Assembly (NCBI GenBank): GCA_018061645.1
Contig: JAGOTT010000011.1
Coordinates: forward strand, 1-33,540
Direction: 5' to 3'
Length of the DNA stretch: 33,540 nucleotides
DNA from: Candidatus Moraniibacteriota bacterium
Lineage (GTDB): Bacteria > Patescibacteriota > Minisyncoccia > Moranbacterales > UBA1568
Shown: positions 10,704 to 29,292 of the stretch, piece by piece
Position numbering within the stretch: position 1 is the first letter of the stretch
How the letters are laid out: every line of letters starts with the position of its first letter
The notes under the pieces: model-generated
Seen by the model: only the letters and a program-made list of their open reading frames with translations
The model's database searches: none
What the model was told of the DNA's origin: nothing
Position numbers and translations under genes: made by a program

Positions 10704-11276
10704 ATGTTTGCACAATTGTCGGGGAAAATCGTCGCCGTGAAACAAGGGTTCGTGGTACTCGACGTGAACGGAGTCGGATATAAGGTGTCCGTGTCCGCGT
10801 ATACGCTCGGCAAGGTCGCGGGCGTGGGCGAGGCGGTGTTTCACATCCATACGCATGTCCGGGAGGATCAGCTTGCGCTCTACGGATTCCTCGGGGAGGA
10901 CGAACTTGATATGTTCGAGCTTCTCATCTCGATTTCAGGGATCGGTCCCAAGGCCGCGCTCGGGATTCTTTCCATCGCCGATCCGGACACGATCAAGATG
11001 GCGATCATCAACAGGGATCCGTCCGTCCTGACGCAGGTTTCGGGCGTAGGAAAGAAGACCGCTGAACGCGTTATTATCGAGCTGCAGAACAAGGTTTCCG
11101 CGCCGTCCGGAAAATCCGCAGGGCAGACGATGCCGGATCATGAAGCATTGCAGGCGTTGCTTTCGCTCGGGTACAACGTGTCTGAGGGGCGGGAGGCGCT
11201 CAAACTCGTATCTCCCGACGTCGGGGATATCGGCGAGCGTATCCGTGCCGCACTCAAGCTTCTCGGGAAGAAATAG
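10704..11276 (+). CDS. ruvA: Holliday junction DNA helicase subunit RuvA
   Basis: 190 residues, full length. RuvA forms the tetramer that holds four-way junctions for the RuvB motor. The N-terminal OB fold (MFAQLSGKIVAVKQGFVVLDVNGVGYKV) leads to THVREDQLALYGF. The two helix-hairpin-helix motifs ISGIGPKAALGIL (about 74-86) and VSGVGKKTAERVI (about 112-124) bind DNA, and the C-terminal domain III (EALQALLSLGYN) contacts RuvB. ruvB and ruvC are not nearby. The FemAB-type gene follows after 11 bases, so the two are probably co-transcribed. Confidence 0.97.
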   Translation: MFAQLSGKIVAVKQGFVVLDVNGVGYKVSVSAYTLGKVAGVGEAVFHIHTHVREDQLALYGFLGEDELDMFELLISISGIGPKAALGILSIADPDTIKMAIINRDPSVLTQVSGVGKKTAERVIIELQNKVSAPSGKSAGQTMPDHEALQALLSLGYNVSEGREALKLVSPDVGDIGERIRAALKLLGKK

Positions 11277-11287
11277 GAATCGAAGTC

Positions 11288-12310
11288 ATGAATCACGAAT
11301 CACGAATCACAAATCCTGATTTTCTCCAATCGGAAGGTTGGCTCCGGTTTCAGGAGGAGGCGGGACACGAAATCGTCCGGGTGACGAGTGCTGGTTTTCC
11401 CGTAGGCGGAATCGTTCACTCGCTTCCGATCGTGGGAAGATACCTGTATACCCCTCGATACCCATCTCTGGGAATTTCAAATTTCAAATTTCAAATTTCA
11501 AAAGTAATTGAAGAAGCGAGAAGTCGAGGGTGCGGATGGGTGCGGGTGGAGCCGGGGACGGAAGCGATACGAGACGAGATTCTTCGCCTCGCTCAGAATG
11601 ACAAACTTAAAACAGTGAAGGCGTCGCACGACATGCAACCGCGCGAGACGTTTGTCATCGATATTTCGAAGGATGAGGATATGCTGCTCGCGGAGATGAA
11701 ATCGAAGACGCGATACAATATCCGGCTCGCGGAGAAAAAAGGCGTGCGGGTATTCCTATCGAACAATGAAAGATTCCGGAAGGCGTTCGTCGATCTCGTA
11801 ACGGGAACCGCGGATCGGAAAGGAATCGTGCCGCATCCGCGGAAGTATTACGAGAAAATGCTCGAGACGCTTCTCGGCGACACTGCGACTCTTTTCGTCG
11901 CGGAACACGAGAGCGATATCCTCGGGGTCAACCTTATGGTTTTTCATGATGGTACCGCGACATATCTCCATGGCGGATCGGCGGATGTGAAGCGCGAGTA
12001 CATGGCGCCGTTTCTCCTCCAGTGGGAAGCGATCAGGGAGGCGAAGCGTCGTGGGTGCACGAGATACGATTTCGGGGGCATCAGAACAGTCAGCAGTCAA
12101 CAGTCAGCAGTCAACAAGAAACAATCGACATCAAACAACGGATGGGAAGGAATTACGAGGTTCAAAATCGGGTTCTCACCGGCGACCGAACCGATCGTGT
12201 TTCCCGGGTGCTACGATATCGTCCTCTCACCGGCGCGGTATTTTCTGTACCGGTTTTTCTCCATCTTTCGTGCCCATGTCACGCGTATCAGGAAATCGGC
12301 CGGTGTATAA
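11288..12310 (+). CDS. FemAB-type aminoacyltransferase gene carrying four repeat insertions
   Basis: 340 residues, related to FemX/FemAB enzymes, which use aminoacyl-tRNA to add the peptide cross-bridge on lipid II. Recognisable are LQSEGWLRFQEEAGHEIVRV at the front, SKTRYNIRLAEKKGVRV near 137-153, a GNAT-like core (TATLFVAEHESDILGVNLMVFHDGTATYLHGGS) and the closing FKIGFSPATEPIVFPG. Four stretches look foreign: the first ten residues (GAATCAC repeat), NFKFQISK near 63 (ATTTCAA repeat), RDEILRLAQNDK near 96 (a REP-like element) and QQSAVNKKQST near 270 (CAGTCAA repeat). All keep the frame. They probably fall in loops; whether the enzyme still works is unknown. The neighbour is a MurE-like ligase, which fits a wall role. 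Confidence 0.88.
   Translation: MNHESRITNPDFLQSEGWLRFQEEAGHEIVRVTSAGFPVGGIVHSLPIVGRYLYTPRYPSLGISNFKFQISKVIEEARSRGCGWVRVEPGTEAIRDEILRLAQNDKLKTVKASHDMQPRETFVIDISKDEDMLLAEMKSKTRYNIRLAEKKGVRVFLSNNERFRKAFVDLVTGTADRKGIVPHPRKYYEKMLETLLGDTATLFVAEHESDILGVNLMVFHDGTATYLHGGSADVKREYMAPFLLQWEAIREAKRRGCTRYDFGGIRTVSSQQSAVNKKQSTSNNGWEGITRFKIGFSPATEPIVFPGCYDIVLSPARYFLYRFFSIFRAHVTRIRKSAGV
11290..11317 (+). repeat. GAATCAC heptad repeat at start of FemAB-type gene
   Basis: Three exact GAATCAC units and one variant (AAATCCT) with 7-base phase. The ATG overlaps the first unit. Confidence 0.85.
11474..11501 (+). repeat. ATTTCAA heptad repeat in FemAB-type gene
   Basis: Four exact copies of ATTTCAA in tandem, translated NFKFQIS. 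Confidence 0.88.
11573..11602 (+). repeat. REP-like element in FemAB-type gene
   Basis: The stretch GAGATTCTTCGCCTCGCTCA followed by GAATGAC is a widespread bacterial intergenic repeat type; read in this frame it gives the tell-tale peptide DEILRLAQND. Here it lies in a coding region. Confidence 0.75.
12087..12135 (+). repeat. CAGTCAA heptad repeat in FemAB-type gene
   Basis: CAGTCAG and CAGTCAA alternate twice (12087-12114), then decay into CAAGAAA and CAATCGA. The 7-base phase is exact. Confidence 0.88.
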
Positions 12311-23715: not shown

Positions 23716-25131
23716 ATGGCAGGTCTTATCGAAAAAGCGAGGCAACTTCCGGCGGATCTGAAAACGCTCTTCTTCGGCGACGACCCGATGATTGCCGGGG
23801 AAGAAGCTTGCTTCCTGTACGGGTTTCCGGAGGAGAAGATTTCGGCCGTGACGCTTCCGCTTGGGGCGATATTCGTGGGTGATATGAAACTCGGCGACTA
23901 TCCGTCCGATATTGCAGCGAAGGCGGGGGTCGATGAGGCGACCGCGTGCGGGATCGCCTTCGAGGTGAACAAGCGGATATTTCTCAAATTCCCGGAACAT
24001 TTCAAGGATGCGGAAGCTTTGCAGCGGGATTGGGAAAAGAAAAAGAAACCGCCGGTCATGAGCGAGGAGGAGGCGAAGAAGAAAGTCTTCGAACTGGAGC
24101 CGTGGCTTTTGGAAAAGGACGAGGACGCTGTGGCGCAGGAAAACGCGGTTCAGGAGTCACATGTGAAACTCTCGCTTCTTGCGGCACTCGGGAAATACGC
24201 GCGGCTCGGGGAGCAGGCAATCACTTCCTCGCGACTCACGCTTAAAGGGAATCCGGAGCCGGTTCGGGGAAACCTCGTCAACTGGCTCAAGGTGTACCGC
24301 GACGAGCTCGGGGTCGGGTATCACGATCCGGTGCTCCGTGCGAAGTTTCTCTTCAACTCGCCGAACGCGAAGAATATCTCCTCCGAGGAGCGTGAGCGAC
24401 TCAATCTTATCCTGCGCTCTGTCGAGGAAAACGCGCCGCTCGATATCGACCTCTCGAAGATGGAAATCGTGTTCCCGTCGTTTACCGTGACGGAACCGAA
24501 GGCTCCCCCGACACTCGTGTCAAAAGAATCTTCCGGACAAACTCCGATGCGATCGGTGCCTGCGTCGGTTCCCGTTCCCAGTGTTCCATTGCCGACTCCT
24601 GGCGTGCAGCCGGCGCCCGCGCCGAAACGGCAGGGGATGTTCTCTTCCGCGTTTACCACGCGTCCGACGGGGAGCGGCTCCCCGGCTCCTTCCGGCTCCG
24701 GAAATACGGCTCCGGAAGCCCCTGCTGGCCAGGGCGGGTTCCGTGTGGGGAAAGGTATGCATTTCACGAGTCTCGAGCCGAAATCATCCGCTCCTGTCGC
24801 GCCCTCTGCTGTTCCGGCTCCGGTCGTCCCGCAGCCTCCGACGCAATCGCAGCCTGTCGGAGGTGGCTTCTCCTTCTCGTCGAAGCACGCGTTCCCATCC
24901 GAGCACACCGAGGAGGGAGGGTTGTCGATCAACCGCTCTTCCGGGGAAACATTGCCCTCCGGGCAGGCGTTTTTCAAAGGGAGTGGCACAGCACCCGCTT
25001 CTGCCGCTCCGTCCGTTCCGAAACCTGCAAAACCCGCGATGAGCCCGTTCCAGATCCGTCCGGTGAGTCTCCATGGAAAGTCCGGTGACGAGGATATGGG
25101 ACGGATAGTCGACCTTCGGAACGAAGGTTAA
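23716..25131 (+). CDS. Cytoplasmic protein of secretion cluster, Pro-rich tail
   Basis: 471 residues, not a named family to me. Residues 1-265 are folded: a short segment MAGLIEKARQLPADLKTLFFGDD, a possible small winged or helical domain with PLGAIFVGDMKLGDYPSDIA, then helical parts with RGNLVNWLKVYRDELGVGYHDPVLRAKFLF. Residues about 266-450 are Pro/Ser/Ala/Gly-rich with repeated PVPSVP, APAP and GSGSPAPSGS, so disordered. The end (MSPFQIRPVSLHG) may be a short interaction motif. It starts 12 bases after the VirB6-like gene and is followed by a weak AAGCGC/GCGCTT hairpin (25131-25145). Possibly an assembly or coupling factor for the machine. Confidence 0.65.
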   Translation: MAGLIEKARQLPADLKTLFFGDDPMIAGEEACFLYGFPEEKISAVTLPLGAIFVGDMKLGDYPSDIAAKAGVDEATACGIAFEVNKRIFLKFPEHFKDAEALQRDWEKKKKPPVMSEEEAKKKVFELEPWLLEKDEDAVAQENAVQESHVKLSLLAALGKYARLGEQAITSSRLTLKGNPEPVRGNLVNWLKVYRDELGVGYHDPVLRAKFLFNSPNAKNISSEERERLNLILRSVEENAPLDIDLSKMEIVFPSFTVTEPKAPPTLVSKESSGQTPMRSVPASVPVPSVPLPTPGVQPAPAPKRQGMFSSAFTTRPTGSGSPAPSGSGNTAPEAPAGQGGFRVGKGMHFTSLEPKSSAPVAPSAVPAPVVPQPPTQSQPVGGGFSFSSKHAFPSEHTEEGGLSINRSSGETLPSGQAFFKGSGTAPASAAPSVPKPAKPAMSPFQIRPVSLHGKSGDEDMGRIVDLRNEG

Positions 25132-25152
25132 AGCGCATGGCGCTTTTCGGAT

Positions 25153-25190
25153 CACAAAGCCCAGACCACAAACATCCAAACAAAGCACAA
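25153..25190 (+). repeat. Left heptad arm of the four-helix-bundle cassette
   Basis: CACAAAG, CCCAGAC, CACAAAC, ATCCAAA, CAAAGCA in 7-base phase, running into the ATG of the next gene. Its reverse complement aligns with the right arm 25558-25611 (shared CTTTGTTTGG), so the arms are inverted terminal repeats of roughly 40 bases. Confidence 0.8.
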
Positions 25191-25549
25191 TGCCTGAAAG
25201 CACGAACAAATACCGGGATCTCGAGAAGCGGACGACTGAATTTGCAAAAAGAATCATCAGACTTTGCAAGGCGCTTCCGACAAACACCATCAATAGGCGG
25301 CTCGTGGATCAGATTGTCCGTTCCGCCGGATCGGTTGGAGCGAATTATCGTGAAGCGAACGAGGCGGTCGGGAAAAACGATTTTGTGTATCGTCTTCGGA
25401 TCGCGCGAAAGGAATGCAAAGAAACAGAGCACTGGTTGGAATTGATAATGGAAACGAATCCCGACTTCGAGGAGAGAATGGGAGAGATTTTTCAGGAATG
25501 CATCGAATTGAGAAATATCCTTTCAGCGATCATCGAAAAATCAAAGTAA
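25190..25549 (+). CDS. Four-helix-bundle protein (23S rRNA intervening-sequence family)
   Basis: 119 residues. The pattern KYRDLEKRTTEFAKRIIRL, then QIVRSAGSVGANYREANEA and RIARKECKETEHWLELI, is that of the IVP/TIGR02436-type four-helix bundle, first seen in intervening sequences of 23S rRNA genes and related to Avd of diversity-generating retroelements; its function in free-standing form is unknown. It forms basic surfaces that may bind nucleic acid. Here it interrupts the secretion cluster and is flanked by inverted heptad repeats. The start codon is provided by the left repeat and has no Shine-Dalgarno sequence. It looks like cargo of a small mobile or repeat-associated cassette rather than a part of the secretion system. 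Confidence 0.9.
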   Translation: MPESTNKYRDLEKRTTEFAKRIIRLCKALPTNTINRRLVDQIVRSAGSVGANYREANEAVGKNDFVYRLRIARKECKETEHWLELIMETNPDFEERMGEIFQECIELRNILSAIIEKSK

Positions 25550-25557
25550 GACGTTTA

Positions 25558-25611
25558 GATTTTGAAATTTGTACTTTGTTTGGTTTTTGTGTTTTGAGGA
25601 TTGTGTTTTCT
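25558..25611 (+). repeat. Right heptad arm of the four-helix-bundle cassette
   Basis: TTGAAAT, TTGTACT, TTGTTTG, GTTTTTG, TGTTTTG, AGGATTG, TGTTTTC in strict 7-base phase, ending five bases before the PrgI-like ATG. It is the inverted counterpart of 25153-25190. Confidence 0.8.
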
Positions 25612-25616
25612 AGCGT

Positions 25617-26012
25617 ATGATGTTCAATGTCCCACAATTCATCGATGTCGAGGACAAGATCGCGGGTCCGCTCACCTGGAGGCAGCTCCTCTGGATGATC
25701 GGGATGGGCGCGGTCGTGCTCATGCTGTTCATGTTCCTGGACGGCGCGCTCCTCTTCGTGGCCGCGGTGCCGATCGTGCTTCTGTTTCTCCTGTTCGCAT
25801 TTTACCGTCCGAACGGACAACCGTTCATCCAGTATGTCATGAGCGCCTTTTTCTTCCTGTTCCGTCCGAAGGTGATGATGTGGGACCGTCCGGTCGGAGG
25901 GATGCTCCGAAAGCCCGTGACGAGGAAAGCGGAACCGGCCGAAAACAGGGCATCGAAGATCGTGACGACCGAAGAGATCCGACGAATCGCGGAAATGGTG
26001 GACAGACGATAA
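25617..26012 (+). CDS. PrgI-family membrane protein
   Basis: 131 residues. FNVPQFIDVEDKIAGPLTWRQ is the standard PrgI-family opening, followed by two membrane helices (LLWMIGMGAVVLMLFMFL and LLFVAAVPIVLLFLLFAFY) and a short soluble tail containing FLFRPKVMMWDRP. Members stand before VirB4/TraC-like ATPases in Gram-positive and CPR type IV systems and probably play a VirB3-like role at the inner face. There is no Shine-Dalgarno sequence; the heptad repeat abuts the start. ATG at 25620 is an alternative. Confidence 0.88.
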   Translation: MMFNVPQFIDVEDKIAGPLTWRQLLWMIGMGAVVLMLFMFLDGALLFVAAVPIVLLFLLFAFYRPNGQPFIQYVMSAFFFLFRPKVMMWDRPVGGMLRKPVTRKAEPAENRASKIVTTEEIRRIAEMVDRR

Positions 26013-26017
26013 TATCG

Positions 26018-26152
26018 AAAACACAAAGCCCAGTGCACAAACATCCAAACAAAAACACAAGGCACAAAAATCCAAACGGGATCTAGTTTGTGTTTTCATG
26101 TTTTGTAATCCGTGCTTTGTTTGGTTGTCTGTGGTTTGAAAGTTGTGTTTTG
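26018..26152. repeat. ORF-less inverted heptad element (MITE-like)
   Basis: Left arm 26018-26080 (CACAAAGCCCAG, CACAAACATCCAAACAAA, then further units) and right arm 26085-26152 (GTTTGTG, CTTTGTTTGG, GTTGTGTTTT) are inverted and degenerate with 7-base phase. The outer words are the same as those flanking the four-helix-bundle gene about 400 bases away. Together the arms could form one long imperfect hairpin. The right arm ends nine bases before the next ATG. Confidence 0.8.
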
Positions 26153-26160
26153 CGAAGCCT

Positions 26161-26854: not shown

Positions 26855-29176
26855 ATGGCCGATCGAATCATCTTCAAGGAAGACCTCAACAAGAAAAAGT
26901 CGCTTTTCGGCTGGCTCGGCTTCGGGAAGAAGAAGCAAGAGCTTCCGATGCGCGCGACCTCGGCACAGGCCCCGGTTCGGACGGAAATACCGCGCCCGGC
27001 CCCGTCTCCGTTCGTCGCTCCGCCGGCCTTCGCAGCCGCACCGGCGCCTTCCCGTGAAGAGCATGGCACGCACGCGTCGAACCTTCTCTATCCGTCGGAG
27101 CCGAAAGCCGAAACGGTCACGCCTGTCCTCGCAGCAGCTCCTCCGGTTTCTGCGCCGGTCTATGTGCCCGAGCCGATTCCCGATGAGCCGCGTCCGCAGG
27201 GGGATCCCGTTCCGGAAATTCCTGTCGCGCCCGTTCAGGCGCCTCCCCGGGAACGCGAACCGGCCCGACCGACCGATTCGGGGAGTTTCGCCGTCCCGCG
27301 ATTCCAGCCGTTTACCGCCGCTCCCGTGTCGGCAGACCGGATCCGACCGCAGGAACCAATCGTCCATCCGACCGCCGTATCGGAGAAGAGGTCGCCCGCT
27401 CTTTCGGAAAGCGAGATGCTGTATGAGAAGGGTGTCGCGACCCTCAAGGATCTCATCGCGCCTCCGGCGATCCGCCTCACGCCGAACGTGATCCAGGTCG
27501 GCGAGGTCGCGTCCCGGACGCATTTCATCGTTGCGTACCCGAAATACCTCGGGACGAACTGGTTTTCACCGATCATCAACCTTGATGCTCCGATGGATAT
27601 CGCCTTTTTCATCCATCCGATCGACACGCGCGACATCGTGCAGGATCTCCGTCGCGCGGCGACACAGGTGCAGTCGCAGATCTCGATCGAATCCGAAGAA
27701 GGGAAAATCCGCGATCCCGTGCTCGAATCGGCGCTCGAAAACATCGAAGAACTCCGCGACAAGCTTCAGCAGGGGACGGAAAAATTCTTCCGGTTCGGGC
27801 TCTATATGACGATCTATGCCAAGGACGAGAAGTCGCTCAACGAGCTTTCCCAATCGATCGAGGCGCTGCTCGAAGCCCAGCTCGTCTTCACGAAGCCGGC
27901 CGTACTCCGCATGGATCAGGGATTCGTCGCGACCAGACCGCTCGCGATGGATTCGCTCGATATCGCGAACAACCTCAATACCTCGCCGCTTTCCACGACA
28001 TTTCCGTTCGTCTCCTCGGATCTTTCGAGCAACGAAGGCGTGCTGTACGGCATCAACCGGCACAACAACTCGCTCGTGCTTTTCGATCGGTTCAATATGG
28101 AGAACGCGAACATGGTTGTCTTCGCGAAATCCGGCGCCGGAAAAAGCTACACCGTAAAACTCGAGGTGCTCCGTGCTATGATGATCGGTACGGCGGTCAT
28201 CATCATAGACCCGGAAAACGAGTACAAGCACCTCTGCGAGACGGTCGGCGGGACATTCATGAACATCGCGCTCAACTCTCAGGCGCATCTCAATCCGTTC
28301 GATCTGCCGAAAGTCGCGAAATCAGACGACGATGAAAGTGACGGCGTGTTCCGGAGCCATATCGCGAACCTGATCGGGCTCCTCCACCTTATGCTCGGAT
28401 CGGTGACACCGGAAGAGGATTCCATCCTCGACCGGGCGATCCGCGAGACATATGCCATCCGTGACATCACCGAACTCTCGAATTTCTCGGCGCTCACCGC
28501 AACCTCGTATCCGACGATGGCGGATCTCTATGCGGTACTGCAGAACCTCGAGGGAGCGGAGTCGCTCGCGGCACGGCTCGAGCGGTATACCGAAGGTGTA
28601 TTCGGGGGATTTCTCAACAACCAGACGAACATCTCGATGGACAAGCAGCTCGTCGTCTTCAACATCCGGGATCTCGAGAACGAGCTCCGACCGATCGCGA
28701 TGTACGTGGTGCTCCAGTACATATGGAACGAGATGCGGACCGCCATGAAAAAGCGCCTGGTCGTCGTCGACGAAGCGTGGATCATGATGCAGAACGAGGA
28801 CGCGGCCGCTTTCATGTTCGGGATCGCGAAACGGTGCCGCAAGTACTACACGGGACTCACGACCATCACCCAGGACATCGCCGACTTCATGGCGTCGCGA
28901 TACGGGAAGCCGATCGTGACGAACTCGTCCATGCAGCTCCTTCTCAAGCAGTCGCCTGCGTCGGTCGACCTCATCGCCGAGACCTTCTACCTGACCGACC
29001 ACGAGAAATTCCTTCTCCTCGAATCGAACGTCGGCGAAGGCATCTTCTTCGCGGGGACCAAGCATGTCGCGATCAAGGTCATTGCCTCGTACTCGGAGGA
29101 TCAGATCATCACCTCCGACCCGCGCCAACTCCTCGAGATCGAGGCGGCGAAGAAGGAATTCGATGAGAAGCAATAG
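26855..29176 (+). CDS. VirB4/TraC-type conjugation ATPase
   Basis: 773 residues. Residues about 1-30 are basic (KEDLNKKKSLFGWLGFGKKK); about 30-170 are Pro/Ala-rich and disordered; about 185-400 form the N-terminal partner region (YPKYLGTNWFSPIINLDAPMDIAFFIHPID). The RecA-like motor has Walker A AKSGAGKSYT (about 424-433) with IIIDPENEYKHL after it, and Walker B VVVDEAWIMM with D639 and E640. ITQDIADFMASRYGKPIVTNSSMQLLLKQSP near 675-705 is the standard VirB4 end region. It powers assembly or substrate transfer of the type IV machine. The stop is followed at once by a heptad repeat. Confidence 0.95.
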   Translation: MADRIIFKEDLNKKKSLFGWLGFGKKKQELPMRATSAQAPVRTEIPRPAPSPFVAPPAFAAAPAPSREEHGTHASNLLYPSEPKAETVTPVLAAAPPVSAPVYVPEPIPDEPRPQGDPVPEIPVAPVQAPPREREPARPTDSGSFAVPRFQPFTAAPVSADRIRPQEPIVHPTAVSEKRSPALSESEMLYEKGVATLKDLIAPPAIRLTPNVIQVGEVASRTHFIVAYPKYLGTNWFSPIINLDAPMDIAFFIHPIDTRDIVQDLRRAATQVQSQISIESEEGKIRDPVLESALENIEELRDKLQQGTEKFFRFGLYMTIYAKDEKSLNELSQSIEALLEAQLVFTKPAVLRMDQGFVATRPLAMDSLDIANNLNTSPLSTTFPFVSSDLSSNEGVLYGINRHNNSLVLFDRFNMENANMVVFAKSGAGKSYTVKLEVLRAMMIGTAVIIIDPENEYKHLCETVGGTFMNIALNSQAHLNPFDLPKVAKSDDDESDGVFRSHIANLIGLLHLMLGSVTPEEDSILDRAIRETYAIRDITELSNFSALTATSYPTMADLYAVLQNLEGAESLAARLERYTEGVFGGFLNNQTNISMDKQLVVFNIRDLENELRPIAMYVVLQYIWNEMRTAMKKRLVVVDEAWIMMQNEDAAAFMFGIAKRCRKYYTGLTTITQDIADFMASRYGKPIVTNSSMQLLLKQSPASVDLIAETFYLTDHEKFLLLESNVGEGIFFAGTKHVAIKVIASYSEDQIITSDPRQLLEIEAAKKEFDEKQ

Positions 29177-29292
29177 GAATGACAAATACCAAATGGCAAA
29201 TGTCAAATCAAGCCCGAATGTAGAAATGACAAATTGAGCTTTTAACTTTGGATTTGGTTTGGCATTTGATATTTGGATTTTGGCATTTCTCC
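29177..29292. repeat. Third inverted heptad element
   Basis: Left part ATGACAA, ATACCAA, ATGGCAA, ATGTCAA; right part TTTGGAT, TTGGTTT, GGCATTT, GATATTT, GGATTTT, GGCATTT, both in 7-base phase and inverted to each other. It fills the whole space between the ATPase stop and the next ATG, which follows directly. Confidence 0.83.

Follow-up and report, generated by a model that had tools for sequence, protein, structure and literature searches.

A Moraniibacteriota gene for an intervening-sequence protein, bounded by inverted heptad arms, as a probable copy of a small mobile cassette family

An intervening sequence (IVS) in the 23S rRNA gene of Coxiella burnetii carries an S23p open reading frame (ORF) between complementary ends, which form a 28-bp stem and are cut by RNase III (PMC4990558). 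Two to three GACAGAT heptamers stand directly upstream of the S23p ORF, in a number that varies among strains, and transposition is listed among the ideas on how such intervening sequences arose (PMC4990558). Proteins of the same family, the 23S rRNA-intervening sequence proteins (IVP/S23p), have been noted with rRNA insertions of CPR bacteria (PMC11270868), their genes have been found in cas loci (PMC3936711), and their homology to Avd has been reported (PMC10053308). Heptamers of the TAACTGA type, which lie close to start codons and occur unevenly among phyla, have been described without a mechanism (PMC4679880). In the openly available literature, we found no paper that brings IVP genes together with heptad arms and with mobility, and none that links heptamer repeats (TAACTGA, STRR) to IVP genes.

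We analyzed an IVP gene in the genome of Candidatus Moraniibacteriota bacterium (GCA_018061645.1). The window, by which we mean the whole stretch of DNA analyzed, consists of 33,540 nt of contig JAGOTT010000011.1 (positions 1 to 33,540, forward strand). The gene and its surroundings comprise the following features.

25132-25612, + strand: entire cassette, the extra DNA relative to same-genus genome G011, from the stop of the Pro-rich ORF to the start of the PrgI-family gene (edges uncertain by a few bases)
25153-25190, + strand: left inverted arm (CACAAAG CCCAGAC CACAAAC ATCCAAA CAAAGCACAA), defined by its inverted match to the right arm
25190-25549, + strand: IVP/S23p gene (PF05635/TIGR02436), encoding a 119-aa four-helix bundle with an Avd-like fold
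25569-25605, + strand: right inverted arm (CTTTGTTTGG TTTTTGTGTTTTGAGGATTGTG), defined by its inverted match and by lag-7 periodicity

In profile searches, the protein encoded at 25190-25549 matched TIGR02436 (E = 3e-27; 95.1 bits versus a cutoff of 24) and PF05635 (E = 9e-21; 74.5 bits versus a cutoff of 33.8), both of which are named "23S rRNA-intervening sequence protein." Upstream lies a Pro-rich ORF that ends at 25131, and downstream lies a PrgI-family gene that starts at 25617 (PF12666), in an operon that includes a VirB4-like ATPase (26855-29176). The initial annotation had described a four-helix-bundle gene that interrupts a secretion cluster, and this is the arrangement that we recovered. 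The cassette resembles IVSs of the Coxiella and Leptospira type in its protein family, its length (about 0.43 to 0.48 kb), its complementary ends, and its heptamers. It also shows two features by which IVSs and transposons are recognized, namely, an S23p ORF enclosed by complementary, inverted ends and terminal inverted repeats. Unlike an IVS, however, it sits between protein genes of an operon (the Pro-rich ORF and PrgI) and not within rDNA, it is accompanied by gene-less derivatives in multiple copies, and its heptad arrays are extended on both sides. The annotation's view that no element of such a make-up had been described needs qualification, since the Coxiella IVS already combines a protein of this family with inverted ends and upstream heptamers, although the arrangement was not generalized (PMC4990558). 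The arms are also similar to the TAACTGA heptamers of Beggiatoaceae and cyanobacteria (PMC4679880) and to cyanobacterial STRR, which are likewise 7-nt tandem words in intergenic positions, near start codons, and patchy across distant phyla. Neither TAACTGA nor the Coxiella GACAGAT occurred as a repeat in the loci examined, so these particular links rest on the published papers and on analogy.

All of the arm words named in the annotation were present in the flanks of the IVP gene, and its claim that the two arms are inverted copies was borne out. When reverse-complemented, the right arm aligned with the left arm along about 38 nt, with a single gap, and none of 2,000 mononucleotide shuffles matched as well. 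Periodicity at lag 7 was strong in the right arm (25552-25611; 0/2000 dinucleotide shuffles) and modest in the left arm (82/2000). The left arm directly adjoins the start codon of the IVP gene, with CACA followed immediately by ATG. Throughout the window, the only lags to reach 25/35 matches were 7 and its multiple 14, and lag-7 runs of this strength also occurred at several other places.

To characterize how general these arms are, we compared IVP loci from three sources. The first set contained 87 loci from many phyla, made up of the best 80 relatives from 84,980 species together with seven copies from the genome itself. Lag-7 periodicity was called when a run of 18/28 or more lay no more than 160 nt from the gene, on the upstream or the downstream side, and 3,872 segments from the same loci served as controls. 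By this measure, 60% of upstream and 67% of downstream flanks were periodic, compared with 3.4% of controls, while lags other than 7 were found in 0 to 7% of the IVP flanks. A second set, drawn evenly over the host's phylum (30 loci in 30 genomes), gave nearly the same values (60% and 63% versus 5.2% of controls; Fisher, P = 4e-13), and inverted arms matched better than direct ones in 29 of its 30 loci. The third set held ten plasmid loci from cyanobacteria, Chloroflexota, and Treponema, in nine of which the upstream and the downstream flank each had a lag-7 run of 20/28 or better; L142 had such a run downstream only. The words of the plasmid arms were wholly different (CGTAAAT with CCCCAAT, ATTCGTA, ATTCAAA, AAAAGTA, CAATTCG, GATGAAG, and others).

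Lag 7 was the best of lags 5 to 12 in 107 of 125 IVP loci. When inversion was assessed in 94 loci, the arms scored better than all 20 shuffles in 83, and the inverted match exceeded the direct match by 82 loci to 10. Arms with a clear signal had a median length of about 50 nt. Period and inversion were thus constant across loci, and the word was free. A strict period of 7 had to be rejected, as a few divergent IVP genes had arms with a period of 9 (L157, L160, L175, and L001; e.g., CATTAGCTT and AAGTTCATA) or 8 (L179; GTTAACGG). Had IVP homologs mostly lacked heptad arms, the annotation's proposal would have failed; instead, both locus sets and the plasmids confirm that inverted heptad arms are real and general. 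Of 192 genomes sampled from the host's phylum, 112 had an IVP gene.

Comparison with related genomes revealed an empty counterpart of the window site. In G011 (L089), 3 nt separate the stop of the Pro-rich ORF from the PrgI start codon (GAATAG-CGT-ATG), with a junction that reads GAACGAATAG-CGT-ATGATGTTCAAT, while the window reads GAACGAAGGTTAA, about 481 bp of cassette, and then CGTATGATGTTCAAT. The PrgI gene is present in 27 of the 28 genomes of the host's family, and none of the 26 other carriers, two of them from the same genus, has an IVP gene upstream of it, contrary to what would be expected of a gene kept at one place in all relatives. Two distant Patescibacteria (L013 and L068) likewise have an IVP gene just before PrgI in the same operon. 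Copy number was patchy, ranging from zero to eight per genome in the family, with seven, one, and zero copies in the three genomes of the genus. The IVP gene and its inverted arms of 7-nt words constitute one inherited unit with a patchy distribution, empty orthologous sites, and gene-less derivatives, which agrees with the small mobile cassette that the annotation had proposed.

Four sites on cyanobacterial plasmids provided further pairs of occupied and empty loci. At one, L138 was occupied, with its IVP gene antisense to the operon, and L145 to L147 were empty. At another, L148 carried a clean insertion, with a terminal inverted repeat of 28/31, where L145 to L147 had a 3-nt gap. In L139, the IVP gene separated cas2 from cas1, two genes with a spacing of 2 nt in L154, and a cytosine methyltransferase (MTase) gene was disrupted in L140, L141, and L153 and intact in L149 to L152. 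Insertion was accompanied by a loss of about 30 nt at L138 and about 270 nt at the MTase site, so some junctions may be secondary. No consistent target-site duplication or common target motif was found at the compared pairs. At the window site, AGCGcATG (25132) and AGCGtATG (25612) could be a degenerate duplication, although as a target duplication AGCGyATG is only suggestive. We also considered whether the heptads are copied from the target. This idea was rejected: CAATTCG (MTase), TACTTnn (cas1), and CTACwCC (L148) were suggestive, but neither the window nor L138 followed the pattern. A search of phage records for close occupied and empty pairs returned two weak matches only.

Several plasmid cassettes (L135, L136, L137, L139, L142, and L143) were located in defense-related operons, alongside DISARM drmD/MmeI, helicase/methylase, or cas1/cas2. 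In three loci from different lineages (L005, L008, and L009), the cassette lay just upstream of what appears to be the same gene, whose product starts with MKxLFLNYEYPPLGGG and looks glycosyltransferase-like by eye.

The window also contains two hairpins of inverted heptad arms that lack a gene.

26019-26158, no strand assigned: gene-less 140-bp hairpin with the same two arms as the cassette, in the gap that separates the PrgI gene from the following ORF (arm similarity)
29164-29288, no strand assigned: heptad hairpin with inverted arms and no gene, in a different dialect (GACAAATACCAAATGGCAAATG), following the VirB4-like gene (lag-7 periodicity, inversion)

The arms of the first hairpin resembled those of the IVP cassette left to left and right to right (0/2000 shuffles each). 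Matches to this 140-bp sequence numbered 27 in its own genome, 28 in the sister species G011, and none in another sister species, G012, with a few more in other genera. Sixteen gene-less copies aligned with sharp common ends (AAAACACAAA...TTTGTGTTTT) and shared a conserved CCAAACAAAnCACAA box plus its mirror, and many gene-less copies directly adjoined a start codon. The hairpin at 26019-26158 was absent from the orthologous gap in G011, and at three occupied hairpin sites of the genome the family was absent from both G011 and G012. At one of these sites (L205), a hairpin of the CACAAA type occupied an intergenic gap that held a heptad array of the GATGCGG type in G011 (L227); such different dialects indicate that intergenic gaps are used repeatedly. 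The hairpin at 29164-29288 was supported by lag-7 periodicity in its left (0/2000) and right (5/2000) arms against dinucleotide shuffles and by inversion (0/2000). Across 802 kb of IVP-bearing loci, we counted 66 strong heptad arrays away from the IVP gene, 29 of which had an inverted partner.

A family of short, multicopy elements whose ends are shared with a gene-bearing element is what defines a MITE, and the 26019-26158 family has these properties. The gene-less hairpins behave as a MITE family, and we presume that the IVP cassette is its autonomous partner. Like MITEs and the REPINs of REPIN/RAYT systems, the hairpins are short, dispersed, nonautonomous inverted-repeat elements with ends that match a gene-bearing partner. 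In contrast to those systems, there is no transposase or RAYT (HUH), the partner is a four-helix bundle, and the arms have a period of 7 with lineage-specific words. One observation that sits uneasily with this partnership is that G011 has the gene-less family together with only a single IVP gene, which has a different arm dialect.

The annotation's suggestion that the arms may be recognized by the IVP protein gained indirect support from covariation of the two. In a rank-based Mantel test, the 5-mer profiles of the arms were correlated with the distances between IVP proteins (r = 0.66; 0/500 permutations), and the correlation was maintained when local background composition was held fixed (partial r = 0.656; 0/500 permutations). 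Protein distance itself was barely correlated with local background composition (0.12). Furthermore, the nearest relatives of the window protein (L008 to L010) had the same CCAAACAAAnCAC words beside the start codon. Neutral flanks are not expected to be alike at such protein distances, which argues that the protein reads the arms or that the two are maintained together. Recognition of the arms by the IVP protein is therefore likely as judged from sequence, although the correlation could partly stem from descent of the whole unit. The two arms also appear to change in concert, as suggested by L153, in which both are one heptad shorter than in L140 and L141.

The AlphaFold2 model of the window protein was a confident four-helix bundle (pLDDT 93.5). 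Its best Foldseek matches were the S23p proteins 2rld and 2gsc, each a deposition of five chains. Next came Avd (4dwl) and Avd within the ribonucleoprotein of a diversity-generating retroelement, or DGR (8ub7), with TM scores of about 0.7 to 0.8. Sequence identity to DGR Avd (PDB 4DWL and 8UB7) was about 11%, and homologs on both sides are pentameric. Unlike a DGR, the window operon has no adjacent reverse transcriptase (RT), template repeat, or variable repeat. Residues Q41, S48, N52, E55, and E78 were invariant in 50 IVP sequences, and W82 and E75 were nearly so. Profiles and structure identified no transposase (DDE, HUH, serine or tyrosine recombinase) in the cassette, whose sole gene encodes the four-helix bundle, and profiles, model, and Foldseek revealed no known recombinase, nuclease, or polymerase fold in the protein. 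Any catalysis must consequently come from elsewhere.

Taken together, we consider it probable that the unit, including the proposed recognition of its ends by the IVP protein, is one copy of a small mobile cassette family. Under this model, the IVP protein would form a pentamer of four-helix bundles, as its homologs do. It would bind the heptad words of the two arms, probably on nucleic acid that is single-stranded or folded into a hairpin, and would bring the ends together. It would act as an end-recognition factor, with copying and insertion carried out mostly by host enzymes, and would serve its own cassette as well as, in trans, the gene-less copies. Because the mirrored arms can pair in the transcript, the cassette would form a stem, which may be excised from operon mRNAs or tolerated in them. 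Stem formation could likewise allow a cassette to persist within 23S rRNA genes, in the form of the known intervening sequence, and the 23S rRNA IVS is probably a special case of the mobile cassette.

Despite its fit to the occupied and empty sites, this model has to be weighed against others. The cassette could be retro-mobile, that is, a folded RNA copied by an RT, with the Avd-fold IVP protein acting as Avd does in a DGR. We regard this as unlikely, even though Avd and the DGR ribonucleoprotein follow S23p among the structural matches and the gene-less copy folds as RNA into a long hairpin (z = -3.4). RTs were not associated with IVP in the family: they occurred in 11 of the 19 genomes that have an IVP gene and in 4 of the 9 that lack one (28 genomes), and dependence on an RT was accordingly rejected. 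None was found in the seven operon genes scanned, and RT matches in the genome itself were restricted to another contig, where they are split over two partial frames. Covariation of an RNA stem was rejected as well: in 16 gene-less copies, the arms of a copy were no more complementary to each other than to the arms of other copies (permutation P = 0.998). Left arms of gene-less copies were closer to other left arms than to mirrored right arms, which, with the lack of covariation, favors recognition of words over mere stem formation.

It is somewhat less likely still that the heptad arrays are independent REP-like or MITE-like repeats moved by another agent, with the IVP gene as passive cargo. 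The many strong arrays away from IVP genes and the situation in G011 are compatible with such a scenario. However, in the majority of loci, from different phyla, the IVP gene has an arm immediately on either side, and the dialect tracks the IVP protein sequence and not host composition, neither of which is expected from random capture. A stationary regulatory cassette, in which IVP would be a nucleic-acid-binding regulator acting at heptads near start codons, as has been suggested for the TAACTGA repeats of Beggiatoaceae, seems improbable. Gene-less copies do adjoin start codons, and translational regulation through heptamers at such positions was proposed by MacGregor in 2015 (PMC4679880). 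Yet patchy, unlinked positions and empty orthologous sites indicate mobile DNA rather than a conserved regulon, as do the disrupted methyltransferase gene and the other dialect in the same gap of the sister species. Lastly, pairing that arises by chance between low-complexity flanks, one A/C-rich and the other T/G-rich, would accommodate the weak left-arm periodicity of the window copy, but it is refuted by all of the cross-locus tests and has a negligible probability.

The arrangement is real and general, and it probably represents an undescribed class of mobile cassette. We see the chances as evenly balanced for the broader proposition that IVP genes form a new class of autonomous mobile elements in many phyla, with no recognizable recombinase, heptad ends that coevolve with a pentameric protein, and MITE-like offshoots, and that the IVS and many heptamer repeats are its footprints. 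If true, this would give a function and a class of mechanism to a very common protein of unknown role ("four helix bundle protein"), a reason for the presence of S23p ORFs in 23S rRNA genes, and an origin for the scattered heptanucleotide repeats that earlier authors left unexplained. The known range of mobile DNA would also grow by a kind that has no known recombination enzyme, as the only protein of the cassette resembles no known DNA-moving enzyme.

Elsewhere in the window, heptad arrays overlap coding sequence. Arrays of the ACAAGAA type lie in the frame of polA, where they encode the peptide KEQGIGEKKQGTRNKKQ, and at the polA end (605-706 and 2429-2490), as if heptad elements had been domesticated in frame. 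Three more arrays, of the dialects AATCACG (11268-11332), ATTTCAA (11456-11524), and CAGTCAA (12074-12142), are located within or at the start of an ORF at 11288-12310, with peptides such as NHESRITNPD, ISNFKFQISKV, and SSQQSAVNKKQ.
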